From: Bacteroidales bacterium
GTDB taxonomy: Bacteria > Bacteroidota > Bacteroidia > Bacteroidales > UBA932
Direction: 5' to 3'
Assembly: GCA_017427385.1 (NCBI GenBank)
Contig: JAFRSW010000013.1
Span: forward strand, 1 to 59,436
DNA length: 59,436 nucleotides
The first letter of the stretch is position 1, and every line of letters starts with the position of its first letter. The position numbers and the translations under genes are program-made. Positions 2,787 to 17,514 of this stretch are shown piece by piece. The notes beneath the pieces are model-generated. The model made no database searches. It was not told the DNA's origin and saw only the letters and a program-made list of their open reading frames with translations.

Positions 2787-5700
2787 ATGAAGATGATTCT
2801 GACAATGCTTTTAGCCATGCTGGCAGGTTCACCGGATGGCAACGACAAAATAATCGAACAGTTCCAGAACCCGACGAGGGCTGCGAGGCCGTACGTTTGG
2901 TGGCACTGGATGGACGGCGAGGTGTCCCTCGATGGCATCAAGAAGGACCTGGAGTGGATGGATGCAGTGGGCATCGCGGGGTTTCACCAGTTCGATGCCG
3001 GGGGAGTGAATATGCCCAAGGCGGCACCATTCAAGCGCCCGTATCTCTCCGAATCCTGGAAGGAGGCATTCCGATATGCGGTGCAGAAGGCTGATTCGTT
3101 GGGGCTGGAGATGACAATCGCATCGGCTCCCGGCTGGAGTTGCACAGGCGGCCCCTGGGTGAGTCCGGAAGATGCAATGAAGAAGCTGGAGTGGCAGGCC
3201 ATGGAAGTGCAGGGCGGAAAAGTGCATGTCCAGCTTCCTGCGCTCACCTTGGTTACCGGCCCGTACAAAGACATCCCCGTGAGAAGAGAATCCAAAGCTG
3301 CGCCATCCTATGGCTATGATATAGCGGTAGTTGCAGTTAAGATTCCCTCTAAGGAACTCAGCATGGAAGATATGGGCGCCACGGTTTCCAAGGCAGAAGA
3401 CGCCAAATCGGTCACAGTCAGTTTCCCCAAGAAGCAGACTATCCGATCCTTTACCCTGCAGACCCTGCCTACAGGTGTCCGGCCCAGGGAGGGGGATTAT
3501 TGCAGCAAGAATGAGATTCAGGCCAGCAAAGATGGGAAAAGCTGGAGAACTATAGCCAGGATCCCCAAATCTCCCCAGGACTTCACCACAATGAATATTT
3601 CCCCGACATGGTCGAAGTATTTCAGGGTAATCGGAGAGAATATCATTGATCTACAGTTACATACGGTCTGGCGCCTGGAGCATGTAGAGGAAAAGGCCGG
3701 CTTTGCGAACTGCTACGACTTTAACCGTTTCGACACCCCGACTGCAGATGTAAAAGCCTGCGCCGCTTCCGCCGATGTGCTTGTGCTGACCGATAAGATG
3801 AGCGCCGATGGCACCCTCGACTGCGAACTCCCTTCCGGACGCTGGCGCATCTACCGTTTCGGGGCATCTCTTACAGGGAAGATGAACCATCCGGCATCTC
3901 CCAATGCGACCGGGTTGGAAGTGGATAAGATGGATAAGGATGCATGGGTGCGCTATTTCCGGAAATACATAGAAATGTATAAGGATGCTGCCGGAGGAAT
4001 GCTGGGCGAAAGGGGTGTAACCCACATGCTTGTAGATAGTTATGAGGCCGGCCCTGCTACCTGGACACCAACGCTGCCGCAGGAGTTCAAGGCACGCCGC
4101 GGTTACGACCTTCTGCCCTGGCTGCCGGTTCTTACCGGGCAGATTATCGAGAGTTCCAAGCGCAGCGAGCAGTTCATCCGGGACTGGCGGCAGACGCTGG
4201 GAGAGCTTTTCACAGAGAACTATAACCGCCTTAACGAGATCGTCGCCTCTTACGGAATGAAAGGCACTTACGTAGAATCTCATGAAACCGGACGGGCTTT
4301 CATGGGAGACGGTATGGATGCCAAGAAGAAAGCCACGGTGCCCATGTCTGCGATCTGGATGACGGAAAGCCCTTCCGGCTCAATGCTGGCATCTTCCATA
4401 TCCGACATACGCGAAAGCGCTTCAGTTGCACATATTTACGGGCAGAACATCGCTGCGGCCGAATCGTTCACCGTCAACGGCGAAGACAAGCGGGCCTACA
4501 CTTATTATCCGGGTAATATCAAGCGTATTGCAGATATTGCACTGGCCAGTGGCCTGAATCGTTTTGTGATCCACGACAGCGCATCCCAGCCGTCGGACGA
4601 CTATCTGCCCGGTCTCGGGCTGTTCAAATATGGCCAATGGTTCCATCGCAACGAGACCTGGGCACCCTATGCTAAGGCCTGGACGGATTATCTTGCGCGC
4701 AGCTGCCAGATGTTGCAGGCCGGGCGGAATGTCGCGGATATACTTCTCTTCTATGGCGAGGATACCAATGCCACATCCGAATACGGTGGAGAGTACATAA
4801 GAATGCTGCCCAGGATACCATACGGCTACAACTTCGATTATGCAAGCCCCGACGTTCTGCTGAATGTGGTGCGGCCTGAAGGGAATTGCCTTGTTACGGA
4901 CAGCGGGCAGCGTTACCGTCTTCTTGTCCTGACTCCTGCTGCGCGCCGCAATATGTCTGAAAAAATGAATGAGCGTATTGCGTATTTGATATCCAAAGGG
5001 GCATCAGTGTGTTATTTTGAAGAACTTGCAGATGCGCTCACGCTATCAGACGTCCGGAAGGATGTTGAACTCGATTGTGGAATCAGTCATATCTACGATG
5101 GGGATGTTCCCAGGAACAAACGCGGCCACGACACAGCTATCAACGGCGTCCAGTTCGTTCACCGTTCACTGGATACTGCAGAAATCTACTGGCTATGCAA
5201 TTTCACCGGTGCCGAGTGGAAGGGGAGCGTCTCTTTCCGCGATGGCGGAAAATATGCGGCACTTCTCAACCCTGAAACCGGGGAGGCCGTGCGTATACCT
5301 TCCCGGGAGGCAGACGGGCGCACATGCATAGATGTATCTCTCAAGAAAGGAGATGCCCTGTTCTACTTGCTGACAGACAGCCCTCTGGACATCCCGGCCG
5401 CCAAGCCCGAATACAAAGAAAAAGAGATCCTCACCCTCGAACGCTGGTGGGATGTGGAATTCTGCCAGAAGGGCGGCGAAAAGGCCACAGAGACCTTCTC
5501 CACCCTTAACGACTGGACCTCCAACAGCGACCCTGTGGTCAAATACTTCTCCGGAACGGCCAACTACAAGTCCGCCTTCACTATCCCCGAAGGCGCGCTA
5601 AAAAGCCTTAAAGAGGCCAGACTCGACCTTGGCACGGTGAACGTGATGGCAGAACTCATAATCAACGGCCACAACGCCGGAGTGCTCTGGCGCGAACCCT

Positions 5701-10953: not shown

Positions 10954-12822
10954 TTATCTTTTTATCATTGCCTTAAGGTACTCCCTCAATGCATCATCCT
11001 CACAATATACAAAACAGCCCTTTTGACCACGAGTCAGGAGGGTTTTGTATGTGTTCAGTATCAGTCGGCGGGCATCATCATCGCTTGCCGTGCGGATGCC
11101 GGATGAGTTGTCGTCTTTTGAAATGGCGGATTTGTTGGTCAAAACGCGGCCTGAGGCTTTATCGTAGGTGAGGTCTTTGCCAATCAGAACGCCTACATAA
11201 TCGAATTCCAAGCCCTGTGCAGTGTGGATGCAACCTACTTCTTCGAAAGAACGGGGATTGATTGCCCAGATCTTGTCTCCTTCAAGGTTCCACTTTGCCT
11301 GGAAGCCTCCAGGAAGCACGATGTCTACATCTCCGCGATGGTTCTTGACATTCCAATCATAGCAGTAGCCGGCCACCATGCGAGCTTTATTGTCAATGGC
11401 ATTCTTCTCCCTTAAGGCCTCACGCATTTCGTGTGCATCATCGAAAACGCGGAAGTCGTAGTTGAGTTCAGACAGGGCGACTGCCACAGTCTCTTCTTTG
11501 CGTTGGAGGAGATTGTCAATGAATTGGATATATGCATCGCTGCCATTGCAGCGGAACTGGGAGGTGAGTTTTGTCTCTTCCCGCATAATGATGGCTGAGC
11601 CCAGTTCCGTGCACCATCTTGTAATCTCCTGAACACTACCGATATCTTTTGTAGTGACGGCCTGGTCTTCGTCCAGCATGAAAATCGATAAGAGAGAAGC
11701 GTTGATGCATTCCTTCACCTGGTTCTCTCCATGCCAGTCTCCATACATCTTCTTAACCAGCCGGTGGGCTTCATCCACGATAAGGCAATCGTAGGAATTC
11801 CTGGGTGCATCTGCCAAGCGGAAAGGGGAGCGGAAGAGTTGGCTGATCTCGGCAATGTTCTCCGCTTTATTCTTTGAAAGGATGGACAAGAATGCCTGCC
11901 TGGGCGCGCTGTTCTTGGTAACATAAGCAGCGTTACAGGCGCAGGTAATAAAGTGCATCAAAAGGTTAACCGCCAGGACCGACTTACCCGTCCCAGGGCC
12001 ACCTTGAATCAAAATGGTACGCTTCTTCTGGTCTTTCAGGCACTGGAGCATAGTCCGTACGCACATATCGAAGCAAACGGCCTGTTCGTCCAAAAGGTCG
12101 AAGACAGGCGTGCCGCGTACCATTGTGGATAGGGCGTCCTGAAGCGATTTAGTAGGCCTGATGCGGCCGTGGTCTATCAAATAAAGGAGATCTCCGTTGG
12201 CAGACTTCTTGGTGACATACTTCTTAACGAACTCCGAGAATTGCTTCACCTCGTCCATGATGAAGAATGGCGCGGTAGTGTACCATTCCTTATAAATATC
12301 GGCGGACAGAGCCTCTTTATAGGCCGGCCAATAATTGTGAAGGTAAGCACAGGGAATCAGATGGATGTCTTTCTCGTGGATGGTCTGGGAATAGTTGCTG
12401 AGGAAGCGGGAATAGGAATATGCCTGATAGGAGGGGTGGCAGACAATTCTTTTGTCGTTGGCAACGTAAGTACGGACGCTGAAGTGCATGTCGTCATCCA
12501 CCACCTCTGCCTTGCTCCATTGCTTCAATTCAACGATGACGATGTTGTCTTTATCAGTTTTGTCGGCACCTATTATTATGAAGTCTACACGTTTGGACGT
12601 CTGGGGAATGTTGTATTCAATGGCAATCTGCACGTCGTCGTCAATTTCGTTGTCATCGACAATATTCCGCATAAACTGCATTGAATTCTGCCAGGAGGCG
12701 AATTCACGTTCCTGCCCGGCGTTCAGGCCTTTCTCTCTGATGAGATCCAGGATCTTGGTTGCGATAACGCCGGTCTTTACATCCTGGACGAACAGTCCCT
12801 TATTTGCGCTATATACAATCAT
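10954..12822 (-). CDS. DUF2075 P-loop helicase-like protein with N-terminal PD-(D/E)XK-like nuclease region
   Basis: A 622-residue protein of the DUF2075 (Schlafen-related) family. The N-terminal part has the order E, VDFIIIG, IVIVELKQW (about residues 68-101), the E-D-ExK pattern of PD-(D/E)XK nucleases. A P-loop GGPGTGKS follows near 275, Walker B CLIVDEAHRL near 350, and helicase motifs such as HTAQGLEFDYVGV near 535. I infer an NTP-driven nuclease acting on nucleic acid. It is 3 bases downstream of a MazG-like gene and shares its promoter; such pairs sit in accessory islands and suggest anti-phage or stress functions. The defence role is inference. Confidence 0.8.
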   Translation of the reverse strand: MIVYSANKGLFVQDVKTGVIATKILDLIREKGLNAGQEREFASWQNSMQFMRNIVDDNEIDDDVQIAIEYNIPQTSKRVDFIIIGADKTDKDNIVIVELKQWSKAEVVDDDMHFSVRTYVANDKRIVCHPSYQAYSYSRFLSNYSQTIHEKDIHLIPCAYLHNYWPAYKEALSADIYKEWYTTAPFFIMDEVKQFSEFVKKYVTKKSANGDLLYLIDHGRIRPTKSLQDALSTMVRGTPVFDLLDEQAVCFDMCVRTMLQCLKDQKKRTILIQGGPGTGKSVLAVNLLMHFITCACNAAYVTKNSAPRQAFLSILSKNKAENIAEISQLFRSPFRLADAPRNSYDCLIVDEAHRLVKKMYGDWHGENQVKECINASLLSIFMLDEDQAVTTKDIGSVQEITRWCTELGSAIIMREETKLTSQFRCNGSDAYIQFIDNLLQRKEETVAVALSELNYDFRVFDDAHEMREALREKNAIDNKARMVAGYCYDWNVKNHRGDVDIVLPGGFQAKWNLEGDKIWAINPRSFEEVGCIHTAQGLEFDYVGVLIGKDLTYDKASGRVLTNKSAISKDDNSSGIRTASDDDARRLILNTYKTLLTRGQKGCFVYCEDDALREYLKAMIKR

Positions 12823-12825
12823 ATC

Positions 12826-13155
12826 CTAAAGCTCATTGTATTTCTTGGCAGAACCTTTGGCTTTGCTCACGGGGTATTTTTCGGCATTACGGCGTATCTT
12901 GTCGAGCATGATCTGCTTGATGTTAAGGTTATACTTGTCTGCCATCTGGAAGGCGTAATTCAGCACGTCTGCAAGTTCTTCGCGCACCTTGTCAGGATTG
13001 ACATCTTCCGGGTTCTTCCATAGGAAAGACTCAAGTAATTCAGAAGCCTCTACGGATAGGCCGATTGCAAGATCCTTCCCGTTGTGGAACTGATCCCAAT
13101 CGCGTTCCTGGTTGAACTTGCGCAATTCTGCCAGGAGTTCCTCAATATCACTCAT
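12826..13155 (-). CDS. MazG-like nucleotide pyrophosphohydrolase
   Basis: A 109-residue all-alpha NTP pyrophosphatase of the MazG/RS21-C6 (dCTPase-like) group. EASELLESFLW and, after a short link, REELADVLNYAFQMADKY give the ExxE...ExxD magnesium-binding pattern. It would hydrolyse (d)NTPs to monophosphates and pyrophosphate. It is the first gene of a two-gene unit with DUF2075. The promoter is TATTTTTG 23 bases upstream, inside an inverted repeat. Nucleotide depletion plus a nuclease-helicase would make sense as an anti-phage pair, but this is inferred. Confidence 0.85.
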   Translation of the reverse strand: MSDIEELLAELRKFNQERDWDQFHNGKDLAIGLSVEASELLESFLWKNPEDVNPDKVREELADVLNYAFQMADKYNLNIKQIMLDKIRRNAEKYPVSKAKGSAKKYNEL

Positions 13156-13163
13156 AGAAATGG

Positions 13164-13190
13164 TTGCTATTAGTGACTCAAAAATAGCAA
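13164..13190 (-). promoter_or_regulatory. Promoter of mazG-like/DUF2075 unit inside an 8-bp inverted repeat
   Basis: TATTTTTG (13186-13179, minus strand) is the -7 box. TTGCTATT (13164-13171) and AATAGCAA (13183-13190) form a perfect inverted repeat with an 11-base spacer that overlaps the box, as expected for a repressor operator. No regulator gene is adjacent. Confidence 0.5.
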
Positions 13191-13212
13191 TAATCGGTGA
13201 TATCGCAAAACG

Positions 13213-13398
13213 TTATTTACTCCTCTCCTCATCAGAATGCTGGCGGGTGGCTTCGAACATCTCCATCATGCCGGAGAGGGCGGCGAAGGGCATGAACTGG
13301 GTGGCTCGCTTCTTCATCGACATCCGCGGCTGACTGAACGGGAACGGGTAGGGGAGGTCGAGCATGTCGGCGTAGGGGTTGGCGGGGTCTTCTTTCAT
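13213..13398 (-). CDS. YolD-like small protein, copy 1
   Basis: A 61-residue protein with DMLDLPYPFPFSQPRMSM and then KKRATQFMPFAALSG. The PRMSMxxRAxQFxPFAAL block resembles YolD-like proteins of Firmicutes, which often neighbour Y-family DNA polymerases. Its ATG overlaps the stop of the upstream 57-residue membrane protein (ATGA), so the two are translationally coupled. A near-identical pair is repeated at 15578-15933, and two 3'-end remnants lie between. The family match is by motif; function is not known, and no polymerase gene is present here. Confidence 0.65.
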   Translation of the reverse strand: MKEDPANPYADMLDLPYPFPFSQPRMSMKKRATQFMPFAALSGMMEMFEATRQHSDEERSK

Positions 13399-13568
13399 AC
13401 AGCAAGCTGGTAAGAAGCGAGCACTATGCCATAGATCATCAGCGCGATGAGCGGAATCAGGATGAAGAGGCAGGGGAGTACGAGGCCGAGGACGAGGGTG
13501 GGGCATACGGCAAGGCTGCCGATGATGATGGCGGTGGTTTTGCGGAAGGTTCTATCTTTGTCTTTCAT
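13395..13568 (-). CDS. Small two-helix membrane protein, copy 1 (partner of YolD-like protein)
   Basis: A 57-residue protein: a charged start (MKDKDRTFRKTT), then two hydrophobic helices (AIIIGSLAVCPTLVLGLVL and FILIPLIALMIYGIVLA). Twenty-four bases upstream is a TACCTTTG box. The stop overlaps the YolD-like ATG. Copy 2 at 15760-15933 keeps the same length, helix positions and coupling, so selection on this small gene is likely. Function unknown; a toxin-like or stress membrane peptide is possible. Confidence 0.6.
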   Translation of the reverse strand: MKDKDRTFRKTTAIIIGSLAVCPTLVLGLVLPCLFILIPLIALMIYGIVLASYQLAV

Positions 13569-13592
13569 GGCGCAAATGTTTGATTACGCCTG

Positions 13593-13626
13593 CAAAGGTA
13601 GAGCCTCGTTTTGACAGGTTTTGACA
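13593..13626 (-). promoter_or_regulatory. Promoter with tandem TTTTGACA boxes, copy 1
   Basis: TACCTTTG (13600-13593, minus strand) is the -7 box. Two TTTTGACA direct repeats (13609-13616 and 13619-13626, plus-strand spelling) lie exactly 10 bp apart in the -33 region. The same arrangement recurs at copy 2, so the repeats are a conserved operator or -33 element. Confidence 0.55.
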
Positions 13627-13684
13627 ATGGCTTGTAGGCCGTGAAAAAGTGGTTGGTTTTTGATGGGGATAGAGTTCGAATGCT

Positions 13685-13752
13685 ATATAAAACTGAAGGC
13701 TGACGATAAACTCATCAGCCCAGTGTGCAGTGAATCCGTAGAATCACTTAAC
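13685..13752 (-). ncRNA. Candidate small RNA, GATTCTACGGATTC family, element 1
   Basis: Minus-strand TACCTTTG box (13766-13759). A short RNA follows with hairpin AGTGATTCTACGGATTCACT (13748-13729) and a terminator GGCTGA...TCAGCC (13720-13698) followed by TTCAGTTTT. The layout, and the 14-base core GATTCTACGGATTC, recur in elements 2 and 3. No open frame. It ends leftward toward the yolD copy-1 promoter. Confidence 0.6.
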
Positions 13753-13780
13753 TATTTGCAAAGGTAATACTTTTTTTGAA

Positions 13781-13820
13781 TTATTTTCTCCCCACCTCAT
13801 CGGAATATTGGCGGGTGGCC
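13781..13820 (-). pseudogene. yolD 3'-end remnant A
   Basis: Reads ATRQYSDEVGRK and a TAA stop on the minus strand, the last codons of the YolD-like gene (compare ATRQHSDEERSK in copy 1). Nothing upstream of this point matches the gene. It marks one of four same-orientation yolD tails in this island. Confidence 0.7.
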
Positions 13821-13841
13821 AGAAATCTTGCTAGTGGTGTG

Positions 13842-13868
13842 TTAATCGTTTAAAACGTTTATTTTCAA
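13842..13868 (+). repeat. 27-bp block upstream of shared leader, copy 1
   Basis: A 27-bp stretch with the core CGTTTAAAACGTTTATTTTC matches 16014-16040 at 26 of 27 positions. It lies about 41 bp before the -7 box here and 44 bp in the other copy. Internally it repeats CGTTT, giving it an operator-like look. Confidence 0.65.
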
Positions 13869-13909
13869 GAATTTACATCCTATTTCATTGACTTGTTCGC
13901 CGCTTTGAT

Positions 13910-14071
13910 TATATTTGCACTGAAAGCTGACGGTCGTGAATTCGGCCGATGATGAAATAAGGAGCAGACGGTTCCGTTCTGGACAACGCTCCCTTCACAA
14001 TTTAAGTTATTATTTGCCGAATATTTGGTGTAGGCCAGGTATATCGGCGGTTAACCACAATTAATGTTGTT
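13910..14071 (+). ncRNA. Promoter plus structured 5' leader RNA, copy 1 (before the 134-residue gene)
   Basis: TATATTTG (13910-13917) is followed by a leader of about 150 bases. Positions 13910-14000 match 16085-16175 at 76 of 91 positions with no gap. Visible elements: hairpin CGGTCG/CGGCCG with a 6-base loop that differs between copies while the stem is constant; a second hairpin closed by GGAGC/GCTCC; between them the small frame ATGATGAAATAA; and a third hairpin GCCGA/TCGGC (14016-14048) just before the gene. Conservation ahead of unrelated genes argues for a functional RNA (riboregulator, or RNA antitoxin-like partner). Confidence 0.65.
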
Positions 14072-14476
14072 ATGGAGATACCGAAGGGAAATACGCGGGA
14101 AGAAATAAAAATCCGCGAGAGACTGATTAAAGATTTCTATGCTGTATGGATTGCCAATAATCCGTCCAAATCGGTGTGGAATAAATCCTTAATGGCTAAT
14201 ATTAAAGTTAAGCAATTGTCTTATAATGAAACACATGAACATGCGGCTCGATCATATGAGTCAACAATGGCTGTATTCAAGCTAACAGAAATTCTTTCAA
14301 ATGCGAAAAAAGTATCCGCCGGTCCCAAAAAACAAAATGACAAAAACCAAAAAGCATTTTCGCTTATTGTAAGAATGCGTTATAGGAATATTCGCTTAAT
14401 TGTAGGATACCAGAAAAGCAAAGGGGAATACGTTCAGTACTCAATTACGGCAAAACCGAGAAAAAGAAAAAAATAA
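14072..14476 (+). CDS. 134-residue basic protein, possible BECR-fold nuclease, behind a structured leader
   Basis: No confident family. The protein is basic and AT-rich in its codons compared with its surroundings, a sign of transfer. Its order of elements (HEHAARSYESTM, then FKLTEILSNAKKVSAGPKK, three predicted strands, ending in GEYVQYSIT) resembles LPD3-like members of the barnase/EndoU/colicin/RelE (BECR) nuclease superfamily. That reading is tentative. It has no adjacent protein antitoxin. It shares its 5' leader with the DUF3800 gene and faces a convergent small-RNA candidate at its 3' end. The C-terminus is Lys/Arg-rich. Confidence 0.55.
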   Translation: MEIPKGNTREEIKIRERLIKDFYAVWIANNPSKSVWNKSLMANIKVKQLSYNETHEHAARSYESTMAVFKLTEILSNAKKVSAGPKKQNDKNQKAFSLIVRMRYRNIRLIVGYQKSKGEYVQYSITAKPRKRKK

Positions 14477-14567
14477 AAGCCGCCTAGGCCGCGACTTTCA
14501 GTGGGGCTCGAATTGAGTTTGAACTCAAAAAGGTTGTCAACCCTTCGGCGAATTCCCCGTGACGATT
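14477..14567 (-). ncRNA. Candidate small RNA convergent with the 134-residue gene (element 4)
   Basis: A TACCTTTG box (14581-14574, minus strand) is followed by about 90 bases. They contain GGGG/CCCC closing pairs, the palindromic hairpin TTGAGTTCAAACTCAA and a GGTTG/CAACC hairpin, and end in a GC-rich imperfect stem and TTTTATTTTTTT. Its 3' end reaches the stop of the 134-residue gene, so the transcript could be antisense to that gene's 3' UTR. The T-rich end lies partly within the gene's Lys-rich C-terminal codons. Confidence 0.45.
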
Positions 14568-14621
14568 CCAATGCAAAGGTAATCCTTTTTATTTAATATC
14601 CAAACAAAAGAGTGAAGAATG

Positions 14622-14690
14622 TCATTTGCTCCTCACCTCATCGGAATGCTGGCGGGTGGCTTCGAACATCTCAATTATGCCTGAGAGAGC
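14622..14690 (-). pseudogene. yolD 3'-end remnant B
   Basis: On the minus strand this encodes ALSGIIEMFEATRQHSDEVR then SK and TGA, the last 22 codons of the YolD-like gene. The homology ends abruptly at 14690, next to a strong hairpin. Third of the four same-orientation tails. Confidence 0.75.
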
Positions 14691-14693
14691 TAA

Positions 14694-14718
14694 AAAGGGG
14701 GTCGAAATCGACCCCTTT
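14694..14718. terminator. Strong hairpin with flanking A/T runs, possible bidirectional terminator
   Basis: AAAGGGGGTCGA-AA-TCGACCCCTTT: about 11 paired bases with one bulged G, flanked by A-rich sequence on one side and TTTATTA on the other. It could end transcripts from either side and marks the break point of the yolD remnant. Confidence 0.55.
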
Positions 14719-14789
14719 ATTACTCGGATATGTTTACATTAAATACCTTTGAATTCGAAAGGCTTTAAACAGTTGTATGACAGATAATC

Positions 14790-14850
14790 AATAAAAAAGC
14801 GGTAGGGAGTATTACCTCCCCCCGCAGCACGAATCCGTAGAATCGCTAAA
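14790..14850 (-). ncRNA. Candidate small RNA, GATTCTACGGATTC family, element 3
   Basis: Minus strand: weak -7 box TATATTCA (14865-14858), hairpin AGCGATTCTACGGATTCGTGCT (14847-14826), then terminator stem GCGG/CCGC with GGGAG/CTCCC (14825-14799) followed by TTTTTT. It keeps the 14-base core of elements 1 and 2 but has a different terminator and a different outer stem. A separate 8-bp hairpin AAAGCCGT/ACGGCTTT lies at 14865-14886. Confidence 0.5.
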
Positions 14851-14957
14851 CATTTTCTGAATATAAAGCCGTCAGGTAACGGCTTTGTAATGAGGCTCTT
14901 TATTTTTCATATTGCCAGCCGGGATGCCGCGGTATTGCATCTTTTCCTTTGTTTTTT

Positions 14958-14965
14958 TAACTTTG
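14958..14965 (+). promoter_or_regulatory. -7 box of the ymgE-like gene
   Basis: TAACTTTG, 29 bases before the ATG at 14995. Confidence 0.6.
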
Positions 14966-14994
14966 CGGTATAACCATTACTAAAACCTAACACC

Positions 14995-15252
14995 ATGAAC
15001 ATTATTCTCACATTGCTCTTTGGAGCTATCGCAGGCTGGCTTGCCGGATTCTTTGTAATCAAGGAGAAGGGCGGCCTCATCTGGAACATCATCATCGGTC
15101 TTCTAGGCGGATTCGTGGGCGGCTGGCTGCTCGGCCTGCTTGGTGCGAGCGGATCCTTCTGGTCTCAGTGGTACGGACAGATCATCTGCGCTGTAATTGG
15201 CGCCGTTGTCCTCCTCTGGGTGTGGAACAAGGTCAAGAAGCTCTTCAAGTAG
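14995..15252 (+). CDS. GlsB/YeaQ/YmgE-family stress-response membrane protein
   Basis: An 85-residue protein with three hydrophobic helices (start MNIILTLLFGAIAGWLAGFF; WNIIIGLLGGFVGGWLLGLL; ICAVIGAVVLLWVWNKV). The Gly-rich helix pattern GAIAGWLAG...GLLGGFVGGW is the transglycosylase-associated/GlsB family signature. These proteins are linked to envelope stress in other bacteria; the mechanism is unknown. It has its own promoter and faces a convergent small-RNA candidate at its 3' end. Confidence 0.85.
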   Translation: MNIILTLLFGAIAGWLAGFFVIKEKGGLIWNIIIGLLGGFVGGWLLGLLGASGSFWSQWYGQIICAVIGAVVLLWVWNKVKKLFK

Positions 15253-15261
15253 AATTCTTCA

Positions 15262-15330
15262 AACTAAAAAATACTAAGGGCTGACGAAAACCGCCAGCCC
15301 TAGATCAGTGAATCCGTAGAATCACTTAAC
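15262..15330 (-). ncRNA. Candidate small RNA, GATTCTACGGATTC family, element 2
   Basis: Minus-strand TACCTTTG box (15344-15337), hairpin AGTGATTCTACGGATTCACT (15326-15307) identical to element 1, then terminator GGGCTG/CAGCCC (15300-15278) followed by TTAGTATTTTTT. It is convergent with the ymgE-like gene. Element 1 has the same hairpin but a different terminator loop and spacer, which supports an RNA gene family rather than simple duplication of one block. Confidence 0.6.
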
Positions 15331-15528
15331 TGCCTGCAAAGGTAATCGTTTTTTTTGAAATCCAAACAATATGGTAGAGAATCTCAGTTTGGACTTTGTC
15401 TGCTAGTTGATCCGTCGGGGCAGTAATTATCTGTTCGCGCAACTTGTCCGCGAATGCTCCTTTAACAGAATTCCTATTTGACTTGACTCCTAGCATACTT
15501 GAATTACTATCGTCTTTTCAATTACCAT
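15326..15528 (-). pseudogene. Decayed small gene (frameshifted), unknown
   Basis: A TATATTTG box (15542-15535, minus strand) is 6 bases before an ATG that opens MVIEKTIVIQVC and stops. One frame over, a 56-codon frame from ATG 15496 continues with SVKGAFADKLREQIITAP to a stop at 15326. A single frameshift would join the two. The SVKGAFA... segment is loosely like small antitoxin-type proteins, but I cannot name it. The 3' end runs into small-RNA element 2. Confidence 0.35.
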
Positions 15529-15577
15529 TCCGTGCAAATATAACTCTTTTGGTCTATTCTCCAACATTATTTTTGAA

Positions 15578-15763
15578 TTATTTGCTTCTCACCTCATCAG
15601 ATCGCTGGCGGGTAGCTTCGAACATCTCCATCATGCCCGAGAGGGCGGCGAAGGGCATGAATTGGGCGGCGCGCTTCTTCATCGACATCCGGGGATGGCT
15701 GAACGGGAACGGGTAGGGGAGGTCGAGCATGTCGGCGTAGGGGTTGGCGGGGTCTTCCTTCAT
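15578..15763 (-). CDS. YolD-like small protein, copy 2
   Basis: A 61-residue protein, almost identical to the copy at 13213-13398 (differences such as SHPRMSM for SQPRMSM and RAAQF for RATQF; the copy-2 form is closer to the family consensus). Its ATG overlaps the stop of the membrane-protein gene. It lies divergent from the leader-DUF3800 unit. Role unknown. Confidence 0.65.
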   Translation of the reverse strand: MKEDPANPYADMLDLPYPFPFSHPRMSMKKRAAQFMPFAALSGMMEMFEATRQRSDEVRSK

Positions 15764-15933
15764 GCAGTCAGCTGGTATGAGGCCAATACAATGCCGTATA
15801 TCATTAGGGCGATGATTGGGAGAAGGATGAACAAGCAGGGCATCATCAGACCGAGTACGAGGGTAGGGCATACGGCGAGGCTGCCGATGATGATTGCGGC
15901 GGTTTTGCGGATAGACCTTTCTTTGTTCTTCAT
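15760..15933 (-). CDS. Small two-helix membrane protein, copy 2
   Basis: A 57-residue protein with start MKNKERSIRKTAAIIIGSL and two helices as in copy 1. Substitutions are mostly conservative (LVLP to MMPC region, LIPLIAL to LLPIIAL), pointing to purifying selection after duplication. TACCTTTG is 27 bases upstream. Coupled by ATGA to the YolD-like gene. Confidence 0.6.
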   Translation of the reverse strand: MKNKERSIRKTAAIIIGSLAVCPTLVLGLMMPCLFILLPIIALMIYGIVLASYQLTA

Positions 15934-15960
15934 GGCATTTCAATTTTTTTGTTACGCCTG

Positions 15961-15994
15961 CAAAGGTACGGCCCTATTTTGACAGGTTTTGACA
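15961..15994 (-). promoter_or_regulatory. Promoter with tandem TTTTGACA boxes, copy 2
   Basis: TACCTTTG (15968-15961) with TTTTGACA at 15977-15984 and 15987-15994 (plus-strand spelling), the same 10-bp spacing as copy 1. Confidence 0.55.
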
Positions 15995-16013
15995 ATAGTA
16001 CGAAAAATGCGCA

Positions 16014-16040
16014 TTAAACGTTTAAAACGTTTATTTTCAA
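16014..16040 (+). repeat. 27-bp block upstream of shared leader, copy 2
   Basis: Matches 13842-13868 at 26 of 27 positions. It lies between the leftward yolD-unit promoter and the rightward leader promoter, so a bound regulator could act on both. Confidence 0.65.
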
Positions 16041-16084
16041 TTAATTATGCCTATTATTATCATTGTTATATTCTCCGTTTTTAT

Positions 16085-16233
16085 TATATTTGCGCTGAAA
16101 GCATACGGTCGTCGAATCGGCCGATGACGAAATAAGGAGCAGATAGTTCCATTCTGGATGGTGCTCACTTCACAAAACACTTATTTGCCTTAGTCGCCCC
16201 AATAATGGGACAGACTATAATAACAATTTAAAT
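16085..16233 (+). ncRNA. Promoter plus structured 5' leader RNA, copy 2 (before DUF3800)
   Basis: TATATTTG (16085-16092) and about 140 leader bases. The first hairpin CGGTCG/CGGCCG is unchanged from copy 1 while its loop differs. The second hairpin keeps GAGCA/TGCTC, gaining an A-T pair that copy 1 lacks. The small frame is ATGACGAAATAA. The third hairpin (AGTC/GACT outside CCC/GGG, near 16188-16210) has a different sequence but the same position. From memory, structured RNA motifs upstream of DUF3800 genes have been described by comparative genomics; whether this is one of them needs a covariance-model search. Confidence 0.65.
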
Positions 16234-17061
16234 ATGGAGTACATCATTTACTGCGACGAATCTGTTAGCAATGGCAAATACTACACCGATTTTTTCGGTG
16301 GAGTACTTGTTCGCAACAAAGACTATGACAAAATAAGGGAAACACTTGATGTCAAGAAACTGGAACTCAACCTAAAAGGAGAAATCAAGTGGGTCAAGGT
16401 AACTGAGAATTACCTGGAAAAATACAAGCAGATAATGGATTACTTTTTCTCTTTCATCAAGGAGAACAGTCTCAAGGTACGCATTATGTTTCGTGAAACA
16501 GATCAGACTCCTCCCAATTTGAGCCCAGATCAAATTCATAACAAGTACTCGCTGCTTTACTACCAATTTGTAAAAAATGCATTCGGCCTTATATACCACG
16601 ACGGGAGCAAGAATGAACCCGTCTATCTTCGCTTATATTTTGATGCAATTCCATATCCTATCGACCAGAGAGATGCATTCAAATCGCATATATTCTCCCT
16701 GCAGCGAAACGCTAGATTCCGTAAGGCGCGAATAAAGATTCGCATGGATGACATTGTAGAGATTAACTCTAGCAAACACTCAATACTGCAGTGTATGGAT
16801 ATTGTTTTGGGCTCAATGTCTTTTATTCTTAACAGGAAGAATGAAGTGATTCCTGTTGGAGCAAAAGATAGAGGTCATCGCACAATTGCAAAAGAGAAGC
16901 TTTTCCATCACATTATTAGGTTGATACAACAATCAAATGAAATAGAATTCTTTGATATCAGCAAGACTACTCCAATCTCTGTCCCAAAGGAATTCTGGAC
17001 CATGCCATATCGTCACTGGAAGTTTACGACTCCAGAGTATCGTAAGGAAGGGGGTGTATAA
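16234..17061 (+). CDS. DUF3800 protein, predicted RNase H-like fold
   Basis: A 275-residue DUF3800 protein. The N-terminal strand YIIYCDES (Asp 8, Glu 9) followed by FGGVLV is the family hallmark. Further acidic and polar positions occur at GEIKWVK, LYFDAIP and HSILQCMDIVLG. The family is thought to adopt an RNase H-like fold with a possible nuclease activity, and is found in phage and defence contexts; no enzymatic role is proven that I know of. It follows the structured leader and faces a convergent small-RNA candidate. Confidence 0.85.
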   Translation: MEYIIYCDESVSNGKYYTDFFGGVLVRNKDYDKIRETLDVKKLELNLKGEIKWVKVTENYLEKYKQIMDYFFSFIKENSLKVRIMFRETDQTPPNLSPDQIHNKYSLLYYQFVKNAFGLIYHDGSKNEPVYLRLYFDAIPYPIDQRDAFKSHIFSLQRNARFRKARIKIRMDDIVEINSSKHSILQCMDIVLGSMSFILNRKNEVIPVGAKDRGHRTIAKEKLFHHIIRLIQQSNEIEFFDISKTTPISVPKEFWTMPYRHWKFTTPEYRKEGGV

Positions 17062-17063
17062 AA

Positions 17064-17137
17064 GAAAAAAGCCCCGCTTAAGCTACATATACCGCCGTGG
17101 TGGAACCAGGGCCTTCGCTTCCGAGTAGGACTTTTTC
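17064..17137 (-). ncRNA. Candidate small RNA convergent with DUF3800 (element 5)
   Basis: TATATTTG box (17150-17143, minus strand), about 74 transcribed bases with a GGAAGCGAAGG segment, ending in an AGC.../GCT stem and TTTTTTCTTTT next to the DUF3800 stop. AGGACTT (17127-17133) and AAGTCCT (17150-17156) form a perfect inverted repeat around the -7 box and start site, which may be an operator. It occupies the same position relative to DUF3800 as element 4 does to the 134-residue gene. Confidence 0.45.
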
Positions 17138-17193
17138 TAGTGCAAATATAAGTCCTTTTTGATAAAAAACAAAAAAGAAACTAAAATAAAACC

Positions 17194-17514
17194 TTACTCG
17201 ACCTTATAGCCCAGCTTCTCAATGGCCTTTTTGAGGGTCTCGGGGTTGGTTTTGGCAGGATCGTAGATGATGGTAACGGTCTTGTCTTCGAGGCTGACCT
17301 TGAGGTCTTTGACGCCTTTCTCGAAGGAGATGTTGTCGGTGACCTTCTTGACGCAGTTCTTGCAGTGCATTCCTACCGTGAAGGTGACGGTTTCAGTCTT
17401 CTTTTTCTTGCTCTGCTGAAGGGCTGCTGATTCTTTTGATGCCGCGAGCAGGGGAGCGGCGGTGAAGGAAAGGGCTCCGAGAGCCAGGACTAAGGTGATA
17501 ATTATCTTTTTCAT
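17194..17514 (-). CDS. Secreted HMA-domain metal-binding protein
   Basis: A 106-residue protein with a signal peptide (to about 25) and an HMA domain with GMHCKNC at about 49-55, ending in EKLGYKVE. HMA domains bind Cu(I) or similar soft metals through CxxC; here the protein is periplasmic, like MerP. It is the last gene of a leftward run directly after a TonB-dependent receptor, suggesting metal import or sensing across the envelope. The metal is not determined by sequence. Confidence 0.85.
   Translation of the reverse strand: MKKIIITLVLALGALSFTAAPLLAASKESAALQQSKKKKTETVTFTVGMHCKNCVKKVTDNISFEKGVKDLKVSLEDKTVTIIYDPAKTNPETLKKAIEKLGYKVE

Follow-up and report, generated by a model that had tools for sequence, protein, structure and literature searches.

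We analysed a stretch of 59,436 nucleotides (nt) from a Bacteroidales bacterium of the UBA932 lineage (contig JAFRSW010000013.1 of assembly GCA_017427385.1), which we call the window. Two genes in the window, one for an LPD3 protein and one for a DUF3800 protein, are each preceded by a copy of the same element, the leader, and each is followed by another RNA element on the opposite strand (Table 1). The leader comprises a promoter box and a core with two hairpins (P1 and P2), and a third hairpin (P3) lies between the core and the start codon. The promoter box follows the rule TAnnTTTG, which we take to be the -7 promoter box of the Bacteroidota.

An initial annotation, made from the sequence of the window, had described the two copies as one structured RNA ahead of unrelated genes, and this description holds. 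Positions 13910-14000 and 16085-16175 are identical without gaps at 76 of 91 positions. The P1 stem (CGGTCG/CGGCCG) is the same in both copies while the loops differ (TGAATT vs TCGAAT), the pairing of P2 is preserved, and the third hairpin lies at roughly the same position with a different sequence. The proteins (LPD3, PF18798, E = 5.9e-7; DUF3800, PF12686, E = 5.4e-9) share no sequence likeness. The same annotation pointed to a tiny open reading frame (ORF), ATG-AYG-AAA-TAA. It is present in both window copies but in none of the other leaders described below (2 of 80), so it is not a conserved feature, and we rejected it as a leader peptide.

In the bacterium's own genome (1.93 Mb, 77.75% complete), searches with either copy found just these two places, and blastn with positions 13900-14070 gave the second place at E = 4e-24. 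The likeness between the two extends upstream (81% between 13885-14000 and 16060-16175, and 88% between 13842-13875 and 16014-16047), spans the promoter box TATATTTG, and stops directly after CTTCACAA.

Table 1. Features of the window around the two leaders. Both leader copies were among those from which the covariance model (CM) R1 was built, so their bit scores are not independent of it.
Feature	Position	Strand	Basis
-7-like promoter box TATATTTG, leader copy 1	13910..13917	+	sequence; TAnnTTTG rule
Leader RNA core, copy 1	13930..14000	+	P1 13931-13948, P2 13953-13997; CM R1 85.3 bits
Third hairpin P3, copy 1	14010..14054	+	fold of core-to-start-codon stretch, z -4.2, mononucleotide shuffles
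Cargo 1, LPD3 protein, 134 amino acids, predicted RelE/BECR-like fold	14072..14476	+	
Convergent RNA S1a behind LPD3, with its own promoter box and a terminator-like 3' hairpin	14477..14581	-	17-copy alignment, pair counts, nhmmer
-7-like promoter box TATATTTG, leader copy 2	16085..16092	+	
Leader RNA core, copy 2	16105..16175	+	P1 16106-16123, P2 16128-16172; CM R1 82.3 bits
Third hairpin P3, copy 2	16191..16217	+	fold z -2.7, mononucleotide shuffles
Cargo 2, DUF3800 protein, 275 amino acids	16234..17061	+	Pfam PF12686 E 5.4e-9; PADLOC PDC-M04A E 2.5e-17
DUF3800-VIII RNA (RF03075), convergent behind the DUF3800 gene	17068..17134	-	Rfam 45.8 bits, gathering score 40.2
Promoter box TATATTTG of the DUF3800-VIII RNA	17143..17150	-	sequence
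Orphan S-Cdi RNA with promoter box	13683..13768	-	motif scan; fold z -5.20 (13690-13757)
CdiA_C-like gene remnant, last 21 codons, LYKTEG end as in intact genes	13638..13703	+	
Second orphan S-Cdi RNA with promoter box	15262..15346	-	fold z -4.37 (15262-15335)
Third S-Cdi-like RNA, degenerate, no promoter box recognised	14780..14860	-	family D8; fold z -2.95

A leader shared by nine gene families

A blastn search with copy 1 against a sample of 150 genomes was positive for five, the bacterium's own included, all from one genus; among these genomes a KilA-N protein surfaced as a third cargo (that is, the product of a gene behind a leader). A covariance model, R1, was built from six leader copies. 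It was positive for 53 of the 400 genomes sampled in the genus (for the good genomes, 25 of 150), for 13 of 299 genomes and three of 25 genera in a draw across the family, and for one of 393 genomes across the order, which was the bacterium's own. In the genomes searched, the leader is restricted to one bacterial family and three genera. When 77 sources were rescanned with R1, there were 88 matches, of which 80 scored above 50 bits. Eight of the 88 were dropped as weak or partial (those at loci L084, L085, L086, L046, L047, and L011, and one each in L052 and L056). Some copies are clustered, with three on contig 19 of G207 and two on contig 45 of G285, and these units are hundreds of bases apart.

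An exact pattern, run over 84,980 named species at one genome per species, found 69 stretches. Most of their titles refer to samples from the rumen or reticulum or to RUG isolates (RUG presumably stands for rumen genomes), and the stretches are labelled as Bacteroidales or Bacteroidia, except for one Prevotellaceae and one Firmicutes. Blastn with the leader found no match among 50,697 phage and 72,556 plasmid records, and two exact leader patterns had no match in viral contigs. The leader had no Rfam match at the gathering score in the window and 40 leader or LPD3 loci, and none at E up to 5 in positions 13000-17300 of the window; weak rows for McaS and P31 in that interval lie below the cut-offs and were taken as chance. 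DUF3800-VIII is a separate RNA from the leader. A literature search, which left most subscription papers outside, found no paper on the leader or on LPD3 with an RNA.

Behind 75 of the 80 leaders, a match to a recognised family starts within 600 nt downstream in the sense direction, and none is antisense; because the families were defined from the ORFs behind leaders, and near copies are included, this count describes the arrangement and does not test it. The cargos are LPD3 (29 leaders), ORF6N/RhuM (15), CdiA_C-like (12), RelB (6, with PIN in most), DUF3800 (4), the Abi_2 group (4), KilA-N (3), HigB-like (1), and HicB-like (1). These nine families, split at a blastp threshold of 1e-6, are all of toxin, toxin-antitoxin, or defence type, and some may be kin in fold (for example, LPD3 and the HigB-like protein may both be RelE-like). 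No recognised gene lies behind the leaders at L014, L029, L033, L035, and L074 (contig end). Seven of 80 also have a recognised gene upstream in the sense direction, from neighbouring units.

Pfam supplied the names LPD3, DUF3800, KilA-N, ORF6N, RhuM, RelB, PIN_3, Abi_2, and Gp49 (for the HigB-like protein). The HicB-like label was given by eye, as neither Pfam nor NCBIfam gave a match, and L080 was placed in the Abi_2 group by tblastn alone, with none in Pfam. In PADLOC, DUF3800 corresponds to PDC-M04A, KilA-N to PDC-S22, ORF6N and RhuM to PDC-S05, and Abi_2 to PD-T4-5 or AbiD; the LPD3 and CdiA_C-like proteins had no PADLOC match. The structure model of the LPD3 cargo is confident, and its best structural matches are proteins of the RelE superfamily and other ribonuclease toxins; the RelE/BECR-like fold is a tentative prediction. 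Searching the PDB by sequence gave no match for LPD3 up to E = 1 and nothing credible for the CdiA_C-like proteins.

In 73 of the 80 leaders, the TAnnTTTG box precedes P1 by 5-35 nt (by exactly 13 nt in 30), compared with 2.6% expected in shuffled upstream sequences. Among 77 aligned copies (the near copies L028, L037, and L063 were left out), 23 core columns are invariant, a number to be read with the caveat that the model search favours conserved copies. The folding energy of a single copy is ordinary in both window copies (z of -0.20 and -1.20), so the evidence for structure is comparative rather than thermodynamic. The initial annotation had asked for covariation, which is clear in the inner helix of P2 and weak in the outer stems. 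Covariation is slight there because P1 and the lower stem of P2 hardly vary: one of 15 pairs has a double change (C-G in 43, U-G in 29, and U-A in 3 of 77 copies), a count that 414 of 500 shuffles equalled, and the covariation score was reached by 26 of 500 shuffles. One pair of P1 is U-G in 76 copies and U-A in one. Such wobble pairs are what an RNA transcribed in the sense direction would show. The arms of the inner P2 helix are co-adapted, in that the sequence changes and the pairing is kept. There are 74 distinct arm pairs, whose mean energy is -6.24 kcal/mol with their own arms, -4.81 kcal/mol (standard deviation 0.18) with exchanged arms, and -3.49 kcal/mol with shuffled arms; no exchange and no shuffle (200 of each) attained the native mean.

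Many copies have P3 downstream of P2 and ahead of the start codon (mean z of -1.66 over 67 copies, mononucleotide shuffles), in several unrelated forms. We considered P3 as a cargo-specific antitoxin and found this unlikely, as window copy 1, L008 (LPD3), and L006 (KilA-N) have one form in common. Ahead of ORF6N, RelB, and some LPD3 genes (L024, L059, L026, L065), P3 repeatedly takes the form of a palindrome of the type TCGCA(N)TGCGA; similar palindromes seemingly occur in the early codons of some ORF6N and LPD3 genes, and they are perhaps an operator. A Shine-Dalgarno-like AGGAG is paired within the P2 stem in 76 of 77 copies, which is unexpected in Bacteroidota, as they make little use of Shine-Dalgarno sites. 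P1 resembles, we presume, the T arm of a tRNA.

Possible relatives of the leader lie outside the 80 copies. L084 (positions 3001-3071, minus strand), L085 (2001-2071, plus strand), and L086 (2001-2077, plus strand) have a promoter box and P1 as in the leader, and then a terminator-like hairpin (AAGAGC...GCTCTT). These distant relatives are perhaps free-standing small RNAs, and their terminator-like ends hint at control by termination or at free RNAs. Upstream of LPD3 at L172 there is a possible distant leader with another P1 (CCCGGTTTAACCGGG) and similar AATTGAAGTCAAGAGC and CTTCAGCAA. R1 missed this stretch, so the leader family may be wider than we counted.

Among 12 pairs of leaders whose upstream 80 nt are at least 76% alike, five carry different genes. 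These are RelB-PIN vs LPD3 on one contig (L053), LPD3 vs CdiA_C-like (L067/L068), LPD3 vs ORF6N (L078), LPD3 vs RelB (L009/L055), and the window pair. In these five, the upstream sequence is 79-99% alike and the core 81-96%, falling to 51-64% behind the core. The leader also comes and goes ahead of a given family. Of the loci sampled in the genus, 10 of 30 for LPD3 and 2 of 9 for DUF3800 have it, and none was found at the rest (the LPD3 scan took in 30 of 42 matches, some of them partial genes, and a contig end truncates L164). Like leaders with different cargo, together with loci that have no leader, indicate a swappable unit. On a tree of 48 LPD3 proteins (4 of 52 loci, with under 100 residues, were left out), leader presence changes 8 times, compared with 15.0 in shuffles; being fewer than shuffled, these changes show that the leader is heritable but labile.

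We also noted several features around these loci. Upstream of both window leaders lies a duplicated block with two small ORFs (13213-13512 and 15578-15877, minus strand, 86% alike), fragments of which occur near 13766-13819 and 14618-14699. The block's ORF of 121 amino acids has no Pfam family; it may resemble YolD-like proteins. An SLFN-g3 helicase gene and a MazG-like gene (10954-13155, minus strand) adjoin the leader units, and the 3' end of a similar helicase gene seemingly lies behind CdiA_C-like units in L061 and L068 too, as judged by eye. At L176, L179, L180, L182, L183, and L196, the leaderless LPD3 gene is preceded by a DNA-binding-like coding stretch (read by eye, as in L176: MNQIYFEAKGEALLERIGMTKTEFARRMGIRKQNVKALF), possibly another way of attaching regulation. 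There are tRNA genes near the DUF3800 loci L013, L161, L157, and L162 (in L161, 10 nt from the DUF3800-VIII RNA), and this vicinity is a possible insertion hot spot.

Convergent RNAs behind the nuclease-type genes

Downstream of LPD3, 49 of 52 loci have one of two RNAs, S1a or S1b, and in each of these it lies on the opposite strand. It accompanies LPD3 with a leader (27 of 29) and without one (22 of 23); the leaderless L195-L197 were outside the leader-presence scan, and their contigs had no R1 match in the genus search. Of the three loci without a match, only L012 is a genuine absence; L037 runs off the end of its contig, and L193 is a fragment that has a different RNA. The nhmmer profiles behind these counts were built from 17 (S1a) and 20 (S1b) of the searched stretches themselves. 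For the S1a alignment, 7 of 24 stretches were dropped because they were wrongly cut or copies, or, for L175 and L192, divergent, and dropping these two favours the alignment used; for S1b, 1 of 21 was dropped. The type of RNA follows the LPD3 tree, with 2 changes compared with 16.2 when shuffled (0 of 500 shuffles).

S1b has two crossing helices (28-31/114-117 and 67-71/125-129), with 98.8% and 95.0% of alignment cells paired. Double changes occur in 3 of 4 pairs of the first helix, while the second hardly varies. Across both helices there are 14 double-change cells and 96.7% of cells are paired, with 0 of 500 shuffles reaching either value, and the count of double-change pairs was reached by 30 of 500; the helices were chosen on the same alignment that was used to test them. 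In S1a, two helices have paired changes and there is a conserved match between a loop and upstream sequence. We inspected seven LPD3 loci outside the family by eye. An S1b-like RNA is seen in L198 and L202, another RNA is common to L200 and L201, and no similar RNA was seen in L199, L204, and L206. A promoter box faces the LPD3 gene in all seven.

Other cargos of this type have their own RNAs. An RNA that we call S-Cdi lies behind the CdiA_C-like gene at 9 of 11 loci. The two loci that lack it, L031 and L081, encode the proteins that diverge most (39 and 45% identical to the first row of their alignment) and by eye have another RNA instead. The S-Cdi motif occurs at 15 distinct sites among the loci examined. 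Nine are behind an intact gene and six are not, and at least two of these six end in a remnant of the last codons (L055 and window positions 13638-13703). DUF3800-VIII lies behind all four leader-bearing DUF3800 genes that we found, the window gene included, and behind 3 of 7 leaderless ones. S1a, S1b, and S-Cdi had no Rfam match at the gathering score in the sources scanned. Behind the ORF6N, RelB-PIN, and Abi_2 cargos, no such common RNA was seen by eye.

A probable cis control unit and candidate RNA antitoxins

Judging from sequence, we consider it probable that the promoter and leader form a swappable cis control unit of conflict genes, and that gene-specific convergent RNAs are antitoxins for the nuclease-type ones. 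The observations that carry this proposal are the sharing of the leader, its sense placement, the promoter spacing, the constraint on P2, the difference between the cargos, and the coupling of convergent RNAs to genes. A cis control element is the most likely role for the leader because it is in sense behind a promoter box (75 of 80 within 600 nt of the gene, and 73 of 80 with the box), has a conserved folded core under structural constraint, and is indifferent to cargo. The leader, with P1, P2, and a variable P3, would be transcribed from its own promoter and would act in cis on the gene behind it. The family would attach this unit to dangerous accessory genes, namely ribonuclease-like toxins, toxin-antitoxin operons, and genes of abortive-infection and phage-antirepressor type. 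Its most likely action would be conditional damping of the message. The invariant parts of the leader suggest a bound factor: a trans-acting factor may recognise the near-invariant P1 and lower stem of P2 and block or release translation or elongation.

The antidotes of the nuclease-type cargos would be S1a or S1b for LPD3, S-Cdi for the CdiA_C-like proteins, and DUF3800-VIII for DUF3800, each transcribed towards the gene from its 3' side. That role suits the convergent RNAs better than the leader, as they are gene-specific, diverge along with the gene, have their own promoter box, and, in the case of S-Cdi, outlast the gene. Transcription, regulation, a bound factor, toxicity, and neutralisation are what we infer for this system. 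The initial annotation had offered two ideas, a shared riboregulator and an RNA that restrains a toxic product. The first is supported by the distribution of the leader: far from there being no further copies before diverse genes, the 80 strong copies precede genes of nine families, and they vary in the manner of an RNA. The second suits the locus, but the RNAs concerned are probably the ones downstream on the opposite strand and not the leader.

If the leader were instead a DNA recombination or cassette site like the attC of integrons, its hairpins would act as folded DNA and the gene would be a passenger. This could account for many copies that are sometimes close together, for the five pairs in which a like upstream region and leader have different cargo, and for L067 and L068, whose likeness breaks inside the leader (by eye). 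The range of cargos also resembles that of gene cassettes. However, the conserved unit includes a promoter box whose spacing is nearly constant (73 of 80), the wobble pairs lie in the sense strand, and the element is 5' of the gene and in sense, with another unit's gene just upstream in only 7 of 80. The lack of matches in the phage and plasmid records (blastn) and in viral contigs (exact patterns) also speaks against it. In integron cassettes, the recombination site is at the 3' end of the gene and there is mostly no promoter, whereas the leader is 5' of the gene and has a promoter box. Overall, a cassette site seems unlikely.

The leader might also be an RNA antitoxin, similar to type III, that is released from the message and binds the product. 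The nearest worked example of an RNA that neutralises such a product, by analogy, is AbiF of Clostridioides difficile (RCd22), where a leader RNA neutralises the Abi_2 product in cis and in trans (PMC12373285). The Abi_2 group makes up 4 of the 75 recognised cargos, and L084-L086 are possible stand-alone relatives of the leader. But one RNA would have to bind the products of nine dissimilar families, including RelB-PIN operons, which encode a protein antitoxin. The leader is not gene-specific, which makes it unlikely to be the antitoxin, and it was not found at 20 of 30 LPD3 loci and 7 of 9 DUF3800 loci, while the convergent RNAs stay with the gene. It consists of single P1-P2 units, not the upstream tandem repeats of type III antitoxins. 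The abiF RNA (RF03085) had no match above the gathering score in the window and the 40 leader or LPD3 loci, a scan that covered 3 of 4 Abi_2 loci (L044, L060, and L075, with L080 outside it), and none at E up to 5 in positions 13000-17300. We regard this role for the leader as quite improbable.

Least probable of all is that the leader merely carries a promoter and that its copies are alike through recent duplication and homologous recombination, as the confinement to one bacterial family and the clear duplication inside the window might suggest, since the leader is present in three genera, the alignment of 77 copies has 23 invariant core columns (a number that a model search, which favours conserved copies, may inflate), the inner P2 arms are co-adapted, and placement is in sense.

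The proposed cis control unit differs from known systems in several ways. Like riboswitches and ribosomal-protein leaders, it has a conserved 5' untranslated core, in sense, with a variable downstream hairpin, but its cargos are of toxin and defence types and lack a common metabolic theme. Like the abiF RNA, it is a structured RNA 5' of an abortive-infection gene, and Abi_2 is among its cargos too. The abiF RNA, for which premature termination of a riboswitch-like kind has been proposed, is toxin-specific and has repeated motifs (PMC12373285), while the leader is common to nine families. The convergent pairs resemble type III systems (ToxIN, CptIN, TenpIN) in combining a nuclease-type protein with a small structured RNA, and the crossing helices of S1b, one of which has clear paired changes, are a possible shared feature with the ToxI pseudoknot. 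In contrast to type III, where the antitoxin is upstream and co-transcribed, S1a or S1b is present once, lies downstream of its gene on the opposite strand, and has a promoter box to itself, and the toxin folds predicted here resemble those of RelE or CdiA-CT and may differ from that of ToxN. DUF3800-VIII has the same layout here, being convergent and, in the window, having its own promoter box. LPD3 was described as a domain of polyvalent proteins that occurs beside PBECR domains in one protein group, with no function assigned in the portion of that paper available to us (PMC5512222); here it is a stand-alone gene with a convergent RNA.

The leader itself, as a cis leader, would be of a familiar sort, and what would be new is its sharing by a whole set of conflict genes. 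The convergent layout may be worth a class of its own. We tentatively suggest a two-RNA architecture, in which an interchangeable leader makes up one regulon and each nuclease-type gene has its own convergent, partly pseudoknotted RNA antitoxin, of a type that would track the phylogeny of the toxin and outlast the decay of the gene. Such an architecture would be distinct from types I, III, and VIII. If it is real, then DUF3800 with its orphan RNA motif and the LPD3 and CdiA_C-like pairs would be instances of one convergent RNA-antitoxin layout. The DUF3800 RNA motifs reportedly originate from a 2017 paper, and to our knowledge these Rfam families have no assigned function. If their layout matches that of the RNAs behind LPD3 and CdiA_C-like genes, a role as antitoxins of nuclease-type proteins could be tested for them. 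More broadly, a leader common to toxin and defence genes would be an RNA-level regulon for conflict genes, and it would offer a sequence handle for new defence genes, with any gene behind a leader being a candidate.

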